Shown: one piece after another, positions 28,949 to 34,199 of the stretch
Layout of the letters: the number at the start of each line of letters is the position of its first letter
Numbering within the stretch: the stretch's first letter is position 1
From: Alphaproteobacteria bacterium
GTDB lineage: Bacteria; Pseudomonadota; Alphaproteobacteria; Rs-D84; CASDRH01
Direction: 5' to 3'
Assembly (NCBI GenBank): GCA_025210155.1
Contig: JAOASE010000012.1
Location: 1-64,000, forward strand
DNA: 64,000 bases
The notes under the pieces: generated by a model
The model's input: the letters and a program-made list of their open reading frames with translations, nothing else
Told to the model about the DNA's origin: nothing
Database searches by the model: none
Program-made: the position numbers and the translations under genes

Positions 28949-31384
28949 ATGAAGAAGAAAAATAAAAGAAAATTTTTTAATAAGGTTGCTTGGAAAAAGC
29001 GATTAAAAAAGTTTAAGAAGAAAATATATTCTTTTAAAACCTATGTTACTTTGTTGCATAAAATTTTTAATTTTCTTTTACTTTCTTTTAAAACAATATT
29101 TATATTATTAATAATTTTATTAATATCTTCTAAGTTTATTTTATCTTTTATTGATAGTTCTGATTATAGAGATGATATTTCAAATTACGTTAATGAAAGT
29201 TTGGGTGTGGAACTTCTTATTAATGGTGATTTGGAATTGGATCTTATGTCTCCAAATCCGAAGCTAGTTTTTAATGATGTTGTTTTTAAAGATGAAATAG
29301 AGTTTTTAAAAGCTAGAGAAATAAAGATTGAGATTTCTCTTTGGGAACTTTTCTTTAATAAATTATCTTTTTCTAATTTAGAAGTTTTTGATGGGACTTT
29401 AATTATTAATAAAGAGGTTATCAAAAATATTGCTGAAGAAGTGGATGAAGAAGATTCGGCTTTTAAAACGATTGATAATAATACTTTATTGTTAGATAAC
29501 AGTGAGAAAGTTGAAAAAGACGATTCGACAGGCTTTATATCTAGATATATTGATAGATTGAAGTTTTCTTTTGATAGTATTTTTATTCAAAATTTTCATA
29601 TTATAGCTAATAAAAAGGATATAAAAGTAGATGCTTTGAAATTAAATAATGATAAATTTCAAAGTAATTTTAGAGGTATTGTAGATTACAATAAGAAAAA
29701 AATTAAAATTGATTTTGATACAAATGAGATCGAAAAATTAGTTGATAATTTGATAAATGATGGAGAAATTTTCTTAGATGGAGAAGTTATTTTAAATGGA
29801 GCTAAGTTAAAGACTTTAATGAAAGTTGGAAACTTTTCTTCTGACTTTAAAATTGTTGGAAGGTTGGATTTCGTTTCTGAAGATTTGTTTTCTAACTTAA
29901 AAAGTTTTGATATAGAGGCAATTTCTTTACCTACTTTAAAAGCTAAATCTAACTTTATTTTTTCTAAAAATTATTTAATGTTTTCTGATATGAAATTAGA
30001 TTTGGGAAAATCTAATTTAAGAGGAAGTGTTGAAGGTGAGTTTAATTCTAAGAGACCTAATTTTAAAATTTTACTTGAATCTGATTACATAGATTTAGAT
30101 GAGGTTTTACAATATGAAGAATATGCATCAGAGGAATTAGATGAAATTATAAAAAAAGATAAAGAGCTAAATGCCTTTAAGGATATTCCACTTTTTGCAG
30201 ATACTTTTAATTCTTTCAATGTGAATGTTAATTTAGACTTTAAATATTTTGTTGCTTATCGAAATTTAAATCTTTCAAATACTAAATTTGATTTTGTTTT
30301 GAATGATGGTATTGGAATATTAAAATCGTTTAAAACAAATATAGCAGATGGATTTGTTGACATGCTTGTTTTAGCAGATGTTTCGGATGGTAAAAATTTA
30401 GTATCTTCTTTAAAGCTTAATGCTGATAATGTTGTTGTTGCAAAAATATTATCTCAAGTTGGTTATGAAGATTTTGCTAAAGGTGGAGCATCTATGCTTA
30501 GAATTGCTTTAGATTCAAAGGGAACTGATTTAGAGGAGTTGATGGCGAATTTAAATGGTTCCGTAAAGGCAAGGACTATAGAGGAAATGAAGGTTGATGA
30601 TTTAGGATTTGAATCTTTAAGTTCTGATTTATTAACGACTACATTAAAGGCAGGGACCAATGCAATAAAGACAGTTGGTGATACTGTTAAAGATGTTTTT
30701 GTTAAAAAGAAAAAAAGAAATAAAAAGAAAAGAAAAATTAGCTGTATATCTACCAACTTAAATATTAAAGATGGAAAAACTAAAAGTGATAGAGGTATTG
30801 CTATGGAAAGTTCTAAGTTTAATATGGTTATTGATGGATATGTAGATTTTAAGAAAGAGGAAATGGACGTTTCAATTCTACCAGTTAGAAAAGAAGGATT
30901 TAAATTAGGTCTGAATGTAACTCCTTTAGATCTGATAGCTATTAAAGGATCTTTGGCTGAACCTAAGATAGTTATTGATGAAAACTCTTTGACTAGAGAG
31001 GCTAGTGAGTTGGCATTTATATCTCTTGTTTTGGCTCCAGTAACAGGCGCTACTAGCTTAGCAGCTACTGGTTTAACAACGGTGTTTACTAGGTCCTTGT
31101 TGGATGAAGTTAATAAAGATGAGCATCCTTGTAGAACAGCTTGGTTGGGTAAAAACAATGATAATAAAGATGTTAAGTTTAAAGAAGAAGATAGTTTGTT
31201 GGCTGATAAAAGATTTGGAGAGGTTTCTTATAGGGCTGAATTTTTGAAAAAGAATATAGATGCTGAACTTAGAAAATCTAAGTTTTCAATAAAAAAGAAG
31301 TTGGAAGTTAATGAGGATAAATCTTTAAACTTAAAAAATGAAGTAGATAATATTACAGATAAAAAAGAAAACCTTCAAAATTAA
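28949..31384 (+). CDS. AsmA-family protein
   Basis: 811 residues. A strongly basic cytoplasmic N-terminus, one membrane anchor (about res 47-68, LLLSFKTIFILLIILLISS), then a long periplasmic chain of amphipathic beta segments with AsmA features. These include YRDDISNYVNESLGVELLINGDLELDLM near the start and GSVKARTIEEMKVDDLGFESL late. AsmA proteins are bridge-like lipid-transport proteins spanning from inner to outer membrane. A C-terminal lysine-rich coil (after about 740) is added. 17 bases after rluC. A frame of 231 codons on the opposite strand is a shadow. Confidence 0.85.
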   Translation: MKKKNKRKFFNKVAWKKRLKKFKKKIYSFKTYVTLLHKIFNFLLLSFKTIFILLIILLISSKFILSFIDSSDYRDDISNYVNESLGVELLINGDLELDLMSPNPKLVFNDVVFKDEIEFLKAREIKIEISLWELFFNKLSFSNLEVFDGTLIINKEVIKNIAEEVDEEDSAFKTIDNNTLLLDNSEKVEKDDSTGFISRYIDRLKFSFDSIFIQNFHIIANKKDIKVDALKLNNDKFQSNFRGIVDYNKKKIKIDFDTNEIEKLVDNLINDGEIFLDGEVILNGAKLKTLMKVGNFSSDFKIVGRLDFVSEDLFSNLKSFDIEAISLPTLKAKSNFIFSKNYLMFSDMKLDLGKSNLRGSVEGEFNSKRPNFKILLESDYIDLDEVLQYEEYASEELDEIIKKDKELNAFKDIPLFADTFNSFNVNVNLDFKYFVAYRNLNLSNTKFDFVLNDGIGILKSFKTNIADGFVDMLVLADVSDGKNLVSSLKLNADNVVVAKILSQVGYEDFAKGGASMLRIALDSKGTDLEELMANLNGSVKARTIEEMKVDDLGFESLSSDLLTTTLKAGTNAIKTVGDTVKDVFVKKKKRNKKKRKISCISTNLNIKDGKTKSDRGIAMESSKFNMVIDGYVDFKKEEMDVSILPVRKEGFKLGLNVTPLDLIAIKGSLAEPKIVIDENSLTREASELAFISLVLAPVTGATSLAATGLTTVFTRSLLDEVNKDEHPCRTAWLGKNNDNKDVKFKEEDSLLADKRFGEVSYRAEFLKKNIDAELRKSKFSIKKKLEVNEDKSLNLKNEVDNITDKKENLQN

Positions 31385-31400
31385 TTTGAAGGTTTTTTGT
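31370..31400. terminator. Bidirectional terminator overlapping the asmA stop
   Basis: AACCTTCAAA (31370-31379) / TTTGAAGGTT (31385-31394) then T run; A run upstream. The left arm encodes the last AsmA residues. Confidence 0.85.
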
Positions 31401-31407
31401 TTTCTTA

Positions 31408-32205
31408 TTAGTTTAGTTCTTGATTACAAGATGGACATTTCTTAAATCCAAATCCAGTAACTCCTTTTATGCAATTAAATATATAATATACATTTGTGAA
31501 CATTATTATGCCTAGACCAATATTAGTTGCGAATGGATATACTAATAATCCGATTAATGATAGTGAAAGAGTTGTCATCCAGAAAATGCTTATGTTTGAT
31601 AGTAGTGCACATTCTTTTTCTGAAAGGGCTTTTTTCATTGTAAATCTAATGATACTAGCGGCTATAAGTAATATTACAGAGATAACTGAAAATACAGGTA
31701 TCATCAGAGCTAGTTTCATATATTTTAAGAATTCATTGTTTGATAACTTTTCTTTTATTTTTGTTATAATAGGATGAGATTTTTGTTTTGCAATTTCATC
31801 TTTAACGTTTATGTCTAATTTGAAATTAGCTTTTGCTTTTGATTTAACTTTCTTTTCTATGTTTTTAAACTCTTTAGGAGTTTCTTTTTTGAAAAGAGAT
31901 GATGCAATAGATATTGCATTTTTACTGCTAATTTCTTTTTTTACTATATCTTTTGTTTCATCTTCAGTTGTGTCGAAAGATTTTTTTATTTGTTTTTCTT
32001 TTTCTTTAACAACATCGTCGAAACCTTCGTATAGTTGATATGCTTTATAGGCATCATCAGCTTTTTCAACATATTGTATTGTTTTTTGATTTATTTCTTC
32101 TATTTTTGGTAGGTGTTTTGTTACAAAAATATAGCTTGTTAGATATGGTAATAAAAGAACTATGAAAAGTAATTTTATAAAATATTTTTTTAAGAATTTC
32201 ATCAT
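31408..32205 (-). CDS. Membrane protein with coiled-coil domain and C-terminal zinc-ribbon-like motif
   Basis: 265 residues, no family recognised. One N-terminal membrane segment (about res 8-27, FIKLLFIVLLLPYLTSYIFV) precedes a Lys/Glu-rich, probably periplasmic helical region (28-160). Three membrane segments follow at about 165-255 (MIPVFSVISVILLIAASII, TTLSLSLIGLLVYPFA, LGIIMFTNVYYIFN). It ends in CPSCNQELN, which looks like half a zinc ribbon. GGAG RBS before the first of two adjacent ATGs. Last gene of a minus-strand run behind grpE and tolB; possible role in envelope stress or protein quality control by association only. Confidence 0.65.
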   Translation of the reverse strand: MMKFLKKYFIKLLFIVLLLPYLTSYIFVTKHLPKIEEINQKTIQYVEKADDAYKAYQLYEGFDDVVKEKEKQIKKSFDTTEDETKDIVKKEISSKNAISIASSLFKKETPKEFKNIEKKVKSKAKANFKLDINVKDEIAKQKSHPIITKIKEKLSNNEFLKYMKLALMIPVFSVISVILLIAASIIRFTMKKALSEKECALLSNISIFWMTTLSLSLIGLLVYPFATNIGLGIIMFTNVYYIFNCIKGVTGFGFKKCPSCNQELN

Positions 32206-32220: not shown

Positions 32221-32781
32221 TTATTTAGCTACAACAACCATAGCTTCTTTTATTATTTTTCCGTTTAAAGTGTAACCTGTTTGTATTTCAGAAATTATAG
32301 TTCCGCTTTTTTCACCAGTATTTTCTAATTGTTGAATTGCAGAGTGTTTTTCTGGATCGAATGCTTTACCTATGCTTTCTATTGCTTTAATACCTTGTTC
32401 AGAAAGAGATGATTTGAAAGTTTCTTGAACTAGCTTTAAGCCCGATATAAGATTTTTGATATCGTTGTTTAAAGCTTCTTTTTTATGCGCTTCTTCGAAA
32501 GAAAATATAGTTCTGTTTAAATTATCAAGAACGGGTATTATTGAGTTTGCAAAAGATGATTTCGCACTATCTGTTCTTAATTTTATTTCGTTTAAACTTC
32601 TTTTTTTTGTGTTTTCTAGTTCTGCGTAAGATCTAAGAAGTTCATCTTTTAAAGTTTTAATTTCTTCTGTTTTTGAACATGCTTTATTTTCTTTATTCTT
32701 GCAACATTTTTTTCCTTTGTTACATTCTTTGTTTTCACAGTTCTTTTTATTTTGACAACATTCTTTATGTTTATCAGTCAT
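32221..32781 (-). CDS. grpE: Nucleotide exchange factor GrpE with Cys-rich N-terminal extension
   Basis: 186 residues. The GrpE core starts at about res 38: long coiled coil (LKDELLRSYAELENTKKRSL), then DNLNRTIF, LVQETFKSSLSEQGIKAIE, the conserved FDPEKHSAIQQLE and GYTLNGKIIKEAMVVVAK. It releases ADP from DnaK. The N-terminal 35 residues are odd: seven cysteines (8, 9, 15, 20, 26, 27, 35) among Lys and Asn, including two CC pairs. Ordinary GrpE N-termini are acidic and cysteine-free. The extension is in frame, has RBS AAAGGA before its ATG, and matches the codon use of the rest. It could bind metal or form disulfides. dnaK and dnaJ are not in the window. Confidence 0.93.
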   Translation of the reverse strand: MTDKHKECCQNKKNCENKECNKGKKCCKNKENKACSKTEEIKTLKDELLRSYAELENTKKRSLNEIKLRTDSAKSSFANSIIPVLDNLNRTIFSFEEAHKKEALNNDIKNLISGLKLVQETFKSSLSEQGIKAIESIGKAFDPEKHSAIQQLENTGEKSGTIISEIQTGYTLNGKIIKEAMVVVAK

Positions 32782-32806: not shown

Positions 32807-34123
32807 CTATTGAAGTAATGGAGACCATGATGGGTCAGATGCTTCAGTAGGTGTGTAAAGTTCTCTCTCGTTATAACCTGTAATGTCTATAGAATAAACT
32901 CTAGTTTCATCAGTGTTTCCGATTAATTCTTGTTTGTAATATATAAGCCTTCTTCCATTTGGAGACCAAGATGGAGATTCTAAATTAAATGCTTTTGTTA
33001 AAAGTCTTTCTCCAGATCCATCTGTATACATAACTCCTAAATAGAATTCACCTCTTAATATTTTTATGAATGCGATGTAATCACCTCTTGGTGACCACAT
33101 AGGATCTCCATATCTACCTTCTCCGAAGCTGATTCTCCTTGCATTAGATCCGTCTCTATCCATTGTGTATATTTGAGGCCTTCCACTTCTGTCAGAAACG
33201 AATGCCACTTGTTCTCCATCAGGGGAGAAGCTTGGAGATGTATCTATTCCAGAATTTCTTGTAAGTCTTTCTAATTCTCTTGTCATTAAATCCATTTCGT
33301 AAATGTCTGTATTTCCTTTTCTTGCTATACTCATAATTAATTGGTTCCCGTCAGGAGAGAAGACAGGTGCAAATGACATTCCTGGGAAATTTCCAATTAT
33401 AGATTGTTGACCTGTTTCTAGATTGAAAAGGTAAACTTGTGGTTTGTTGTTGAAGAAAGTCATATAAGTTATTTCTTGTGATGCAGGTGAGAAGTTCGGA
33501 GTGAATACAGGAACTCTTCCGCTAGTAAGGTATTTTAAATTTGCACCGTCTTGATCTATGATTGCCATTCTTCTTTTTTTATTTAGTGCAGATCCAGTTT
33601 CTGAAATGTAAACAATTCTTGTGTCAAAGTAACCTTCTTCTCCAGTCATTCTTTTGTAAATTAAATCGGCTATTATGTGAGAAATTCTTCTCCAGTTATC
33701 TTTTGTTGTTTTTAGAGATTGTCCTTCTAATCTTTGTTGAGATGCTATATCCCAAAGGTGAAAATTAACTTTTATTTTATTTCCGCTATCTTCAGTAACG
33801 CTTCCTTTGATAAGAGCTTTTACATTTATAACATCCCAATCATTGAAAGTTGGAGCGTCATCTGTGTTGTCTTCATCGTTTATAAATTGTTTTTTATCAA
33901 CAGGTAAAAATAATCCAGAAGACTTTAAATCATTGGAAATTACTTTTGCTATTTTTTGACCTATTGTTTTAAGTTCTTTATCTTGTCCTTTTAAATCAGG
34001 TATTGCTATTTGAATAGGTTCAAATTTACCTTCTGTGATATCTATTTTTAGTGCGGCAAAACTTTTACTTGGTAAAATGCTTATAATACTTGCCAGAAAT
34101 ATATTTCTAAATATTTTTTTCAT
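32807..34123 (-). CDS. tolB: Tol-Pal system beta-propeller protein TolB
   Basis: 438 residues from ATG 34123, chosen because GAAGGAA precedes it and a signal peptide follows ([23 protein letters not shown]). The N-terminal domain has FEPIQIAIP and [11 protein letters not shown]. The C-terminal propeller carries repeated Asp-box-like blades such as [41 protein letters not shown] and [11 protein letters not shown]. Periplasmic partner of Pal in outer-membrane constriction at division. The usual neighbours tolQRA, pal and cpoB are absent here, so the tol locus is split in this genome. Confidence 0.95.
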
Positions 34124-34199
34124 ACTTATTCCTTCTTTTTTTGATAGTAATATTATGCAATTTACCGTTATTATTTTCAAGTGTTTTTTCAAAGAAAAA

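Follow-up and report, generated by a model that had tools for sequence, protein, structure and literature searches.

An alphaproteobacterial GrpE with a cysteine-rich N-terminal tail, found in a few related small-genome bacteria

The 64,000-nucleotide stretch of DNA that we analyzed (the window) encodes GrpE, which recharges the chaperone DnaK, as an otherwise ordinary protein preceded by an N-terminal tail with seven cysteines in its first 35 residues. Within the GrpEs that we sampled, such a cysteine-rich tail is a lineage-restricted trait of a few related small-genome bacteria. GrpE itself is known; its combination with such a tail is not described in the literature that we searched, where we found no account of a cysteine-rich or metallothionein-like GrpE. 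In our preferred reading, to which we assign a probability of roughly 45%, an ordinary dimeric GrpE has acquired a metallothionein-like, SlyD-like metal-thiolate tail that may alter its action on DnaK clients.

The GrpE-encoding frame runs on the minus strand from 32781 to 32221, and the plus strand contains no open frame over this interval. The gene, its parts and its surroundings are as follows.

32221..32781, minus strand: grpE with the cysteine-rich N-terminal tail, 186 amino acids (Pfam PF01025, E = 1.6e-39; sole copy in the genome; GrpE fold by Foldseek)
32674..32781, minus strand: cysteine-rich tail, residues 1-36 (C8, C9, C15, C20, C26, C27 and C35)
32704..32781, minus strand: predicted disordered part of the tail, residues 1-26 (AlphaFold2 pLDDT below 50 at residues 1-12 and 14-26)
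32656..32707, no strand assigned: imperfect 27-base tandem duplication (1.9 copies, 80% matches) at the junction of tail and stalk, covering C26/C27 and C35
32782..32794, minus strand: Shine-Dalgarno-like AAAGGA, 5' of the grpE ATG (from sequence)
32807..34192, minus strand: tolB, 5' of grpE across a 25-base gap (Pfam TolB_N, E = 1.3e-31)
31408..32205, minus strand: open reading frame for a putative membrane protein of 265 amino acids, 3' of grpE across a 15-base gap, with the C-terminal sequence CPSCNQELN
31368..31396, minus strand: terminator-like hairpin after the tolB-grpE-ORF265 run (consensus scan only)

The core of the protein leaves little doubt about its family. The Pfam match covers residues 26-186 at 135.6 bits against a cut-off of 25.8, the invariant GrpE residues are present, and the top Foldseek hits consist of GrpE structures throughout, ranging from E. 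coli to human GrpEL1, in line with the original observation that a normal GrpE follows the tail. An AlphaFold2 monomer model (35 GrpEs; mean pLDDT 86.6) places helices at residues 27-98, the stalk, and 106-128, followed by the strands of the usual C-terminal beta domain. Because the predicted stalk helix begins at residue 27, both C27 and C35 would lie on it. The genome has a single dnaK. The dnaK at L104:5757-7688 (minus strand) lies away from grpE and has no adjoining dnaJ in the stretch read. The 265-residue neighbor matched no curated family above the cut-off.

We conclude that the tail is very probably translated. Between the upstream stop and a point well inside the core, the grpE frame contains no ATG, GTG or TTG other than the one ATG behind the AAAGGA motif, so that a tail-free GrpE made from this gene would require processing or a non-standard start. 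The earlier claim that the frame and ribosome-binding site support translation of the tail is thus borne out. A mistranslated or late start was rejected on the same grounds and because the start context is common to the relatives, and an assembly or frame error is unlikely because independently assembled relatives carry similar tails.

The N-terminus reads MTDKHKECCQNKKNCENKECNKGKKCCKNKENKACSK and then passes into the GrpE core, with all seven cysteines at the positions originally given for them. Residues 1-36 include 11 lysines and 6 asparagines and lack I, L, V, F, W and Y altogether; residues 1-37 carry a net charge of +7. The tail has one histidine, and both CxC and CxxC are absent. Against a cysteine background of 1.1-1.2% (1.17% in 419 open reading frames from the genome stretches sampled first), the binomial probability of at least seven cysteines in 35 residues at a fixed place is 1.5e-7 for the 1.17% background. 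As a genome offers many possible places, the rank among stretches is the better measure: the tail is the sole 35-residue stretch with at least seven cysteines among 789 open reading frames of 60 or more amino acids, read from 800 kb, or 78%, of the 1.027-Mb genome. Three stretches in the same 800 kb reach six cysteines per 35 residues, all well within larger proteins. Cysteine-rich proteins as a general feature of this genome were thereby ruled out for the 78% covered. The GrpE tail is also the densest cysteine stretch in the genome samples of three relatives (G001, G007 and G015).

Among the relatives sampled, tails of this kind are confined to two places. In the genomes compared, the window's family has one other member, G001, from another genus, and its GrpE tail (L004) holds 15 cysteines and 8 histidines. 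In one genus, g4, of the sister family f3, five of six species have tails with 6-13 cysteines (L003, L005, L007, L008 and L009); L011, the remaining species, has a single tail cysteine. The cysteine-rich tails of the relatives contain CC, CCC, CxC and HCHC clusters and added histidines. Elsewhere in the order, as sampled, GrpE tails hold 0-3 cysteines: 3 in f4, 0-2 in f6, 0-2 in the rest of f3 and 0-2 in the large family f5 (27 read). Outside the order, the 68 GrpEs taken from the class (the 28 best-matching and 40 further ones) have 0-2, confirming the premise that GrpE N-termini are otherwise poor in cysteine. Beyond the class, the one distant locus (L032) has a single tail cysteine; scanning with the window's GrpE protein returned one distant GrpE from genome contigs and no match from viral contigs. 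Relatives lacking the tail had been named beforehand as evidence against the idea, and most of the order does lack it; the nearest relatives do not.

How might such a tail work? In the metal-thiolate reading, the lineage would have added a thiol-rich segment to the disordered N-terminus of a dimeric GrpE. By analogy with known GrpE dimers, which are parallel, two tails with 14 cysteines between them would emerge together at one end of the stalk, near the substrate-binding domain of DnaK. Their thiolates would hold soft metals (Zn, Cu(I)) in loosely arranged clusters for which exact spacing is immaterial, much as SlyD does with its variable His/Cys tail. Metal loading, or metal loss upon thiol oxidation, would compact or cross-link the tails, and this in turn would alter the effect of GrpE on DnaK clients. 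We infer metal binding from the cysteine density, the CC, CCC, CxC and HCHC clusters of the relatives and the free spacing; an effect on DnaK of loading the tail with metal, or of oxidizing it, is speculative and argued by analogy.

The recurrence of the tails, with 7 and 15 cysteines in both compared genera of the family and 6-13 in g4, speaks for the metal-thiolate reading. So do the clusters and added histidines of the relatives, the 0-2 cysteines of f5 and of the class outside the order, the rank of the tail within its genome, the retention of cysteine codons in two close pairs, the predicted disorder up to residue 26, and the precedents of SlyD (PMC7055735) and of the E. coli GrpE tails that act on the substrate-binding domain of DnaK (PMC12915176). 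Counting against it are the single histidine of the window's tail and its lack of CxC and CxxC, the failure of cysteine positions to be conserved between lineages, the one-cysteine tail of L011, and the fact that the tails match no known metallothionein family. Indeed, a Pfam search with four cysteine-rich tails at E values up to 5 returned no family, metallothioneins included, and a known metallothionein domain was therefore rejected. Across the order, the presence of the tail tracks neither P-type ATPases nor Hsp33.

The same thiols could instead serve as a redox switch. Disulfides within and between the two tails, and at C27 and C35 near the upper end of the stalk, would stiffen or block GrpE, DnaK would hold its clients during oxidative stress, and metals would be incidental. 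A precedent exists in human GRPEL2, where an interprotomer disulfide at Cys87 lowers the affinity for mtHsp70 (PMC12987570), and several cysteine-poor GrpEs of f3 and f6 (genus g8) keep one pre-stalk cysteine in a C-x6-[IL] context (L006, L010, L011 and L012). None of the 24 genomes tested from the order encodes the redox chaperone Hsp33, which is present in 3 of 3 tested from the same class outside it; yet it is missing from members without the tail as well, so there is no correlation, and the tail as a replacement for Hsp33 was rejected for this reason. Moreover, 6-15 cysteines plus histidines exceed what a disulfide switch needs. We regard this explanation as unlikely.

Alternatively, GrpE may simply be an abundant carrier whose tail buffers Zn or Cu and leaves DnaK function untouched. 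The window's own genome (G000) encodes neither an HMA domain nor an E1-E2 (P-type) ATPase, leaving it few known means of metal export, and the relative G007 has Cys/His-rich stretches in unrelated small proteins too. However, the tailed relatives G001, G003 and G007 possess a P-type ATPase, whereas the tail-less f5 genomes mostly do not; given this lack of correlation, the tail as a replacement for P-type metal pumps was ruled out. That it is GrpE in particular to which the tail is joined, and this in separate lineages, further suggests a link, and we consider mere metal storage quite improbable.

Other proteins of the relatives with cysteine-rich stretches were noted in their own right. G007 encodes a 90-residue protein (L137:16169-16441, plus strand) and a 79-residue protein (L142:6805-7044, minus strand) with the Cys/His-rich stretches HHCENHCCCHHH... 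and NCNCGCHCSCHQNECTCECHK; the stretch in the latter follows a possible membrane helix, and its gene adjoins an apparent ffh. Neither protein matched a known family above the cut-off. Two further frames, L181:2025-2546 (plus strand, f5) and L101:9885-10187 (minus strand, genus g9 of f3), combine a Lys/Ala-rich N-terminus with a cysteine-rich patch (CGCDKGCACGGECACAKKKC in L181, CAMSGGACGC in L101) immediately ahead of a likely membrane helix.

The variability of the tails raises the question of whether they are selected at all. Their length and spacing differ even among close species, and individual cysteine positions cannot be aligned across lineages, though most can between close species. 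Conservation of the cysteines in relatives, the check first proposed, thus fails at the level of single residues across lineages. Slippage or duplication could have lengthened an unconstrained disordered tail in an A/T-rich genome, with cysteine codons rising in number by chance, an account that fits the differing tails of close species, the tail-less g4 species and the imperfect 27-base duplication across C26/C27 and C35. This duplication suggests a route by which such tails may grow. We nevertheless hold an origin free of selected function to be very improbable: the family and g4 both show the cysteine enrichment, no other such stretch exists in the 78% of the genome that was read, and close pairs retain cysteine codons more than their neighbors. 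In DNA-level alignments of two close-species pairs, 12 of 14 cysteine codons were kept (the 14 being those of the cysteine-poorer partner) compared with 74 of the 125 remaining codons in the tail (P = 0.045), a weak, alignment-dependent test on two pairs. In a tree of the GrpE core, the cysteine-rich rows do not form one clade and require at least four changes, and the window and G001 rows branch deep with modest support. This count tells against a single origin, but the deep branches are poorly supported. The tail may thus be an old trait lost several times, or one gained repeatedly.

A further aspect of the tail concerns what it lacks. In E. coli, the disordered GrpE tails enter the substrate cleft of DnaK through I17-I18-M19 with acidic flanks (2026 study, PMC12915176). 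The tail of the window's GrpE has no acid-flanked hydrophobic motif, as I, L, V, F, W and Y are all missing from residues 2-37. By a simple pattern, the motif occurs in 21 of 27 f5 tails, none of the 7 cysteine-rich tails, none of 6 other f3 tails and 9 of 26 tails from elsewhere in the class. Because it is also missing from the other f3 tails and present in so few of the class, its absence alone is not peculiar; the motif was proposed recently and is no strict mark of the GrpE family. The positive charge, likewise, is particular to the window's GrpE and not to the trait, since the other cysteine-rich tails, taken together, show no excess of positive charge (mean about -2). The N-termini of f5 GrpEs (for example L017, L029 and L052) share a recurrent sequence close to KEVKVExVSIDDA, which resembles the acid-flanked DnaK-binding motif of E. 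coli.

A bolder idea, which we find rather doubtful, is that the GrpE tails are a metal- and thiol-responsive module that has replaced the hydrophobic pseudo-substrate motif, so that the exchange step itself would sense stress from metals or oxidants in a lineage without Hsp33. Metal or redox state may then control the bacterial Hsp70 cycle at the point of exchange; mitochondrial GrpE homologues are the only precedents for such control that this analysis found. With its basic, thiol-rich tail free of the hydrophobic motif, the window's lineage offers a natural test of what GrpE tails do.

Several known systems bear comparison with the protein. With the GrpE family (E. coli 1DKG, G. kaustophilus 4ANI, M. 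tuberculosis 8GB3) it shares the full core, the invariant residues and the fold. Known GrpE tails, by contrast, are mostly acidic and carry the acid-flanked hydrophobic motif, in place of which the window's protein has its +7 charge and seven cysteines. Human GRPEL2 is likewise an exchange factor of the GrpE type, and oxidation of a cysteine may govern its activity (PMC12987570), but it relies on the single Cys87 inside the stalk, has no cysteine-rich tail and is of separate origin. The unstructured, variable His/Cys tail of SlyD binds several metal ions, and this binding reversibly inhibits SlyD's own isomerase activity (PMC7055735). Both SlyD and the window's GrpE are thus folding helpers with an appended unstructured, lineage-variable, ligand-rich tail, by analogy and not by homology: SlyD belongs to another protein family, its tail is C-terminal and uses His, Asp and Glu besides Cys, and its metal binding is measured where that of the GrpE tail is inferred. 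The mycobacterial GroEL1 offers another chaperone tail, which binds Cu(II) (PMC10170517); it is C-terminal and rich in histidine in place of cysteine, and GroEL1 is a chaperonin, not an exchange factor. Finally, the bacterial metallothioneins SmtA and MymT resemble the window's tail in packing many cysteines into a short stretch (PMC7558416); they are stand-alone small proteins, whereas the tail is part of GrpE and has no Pfam match even at an E value of 5.
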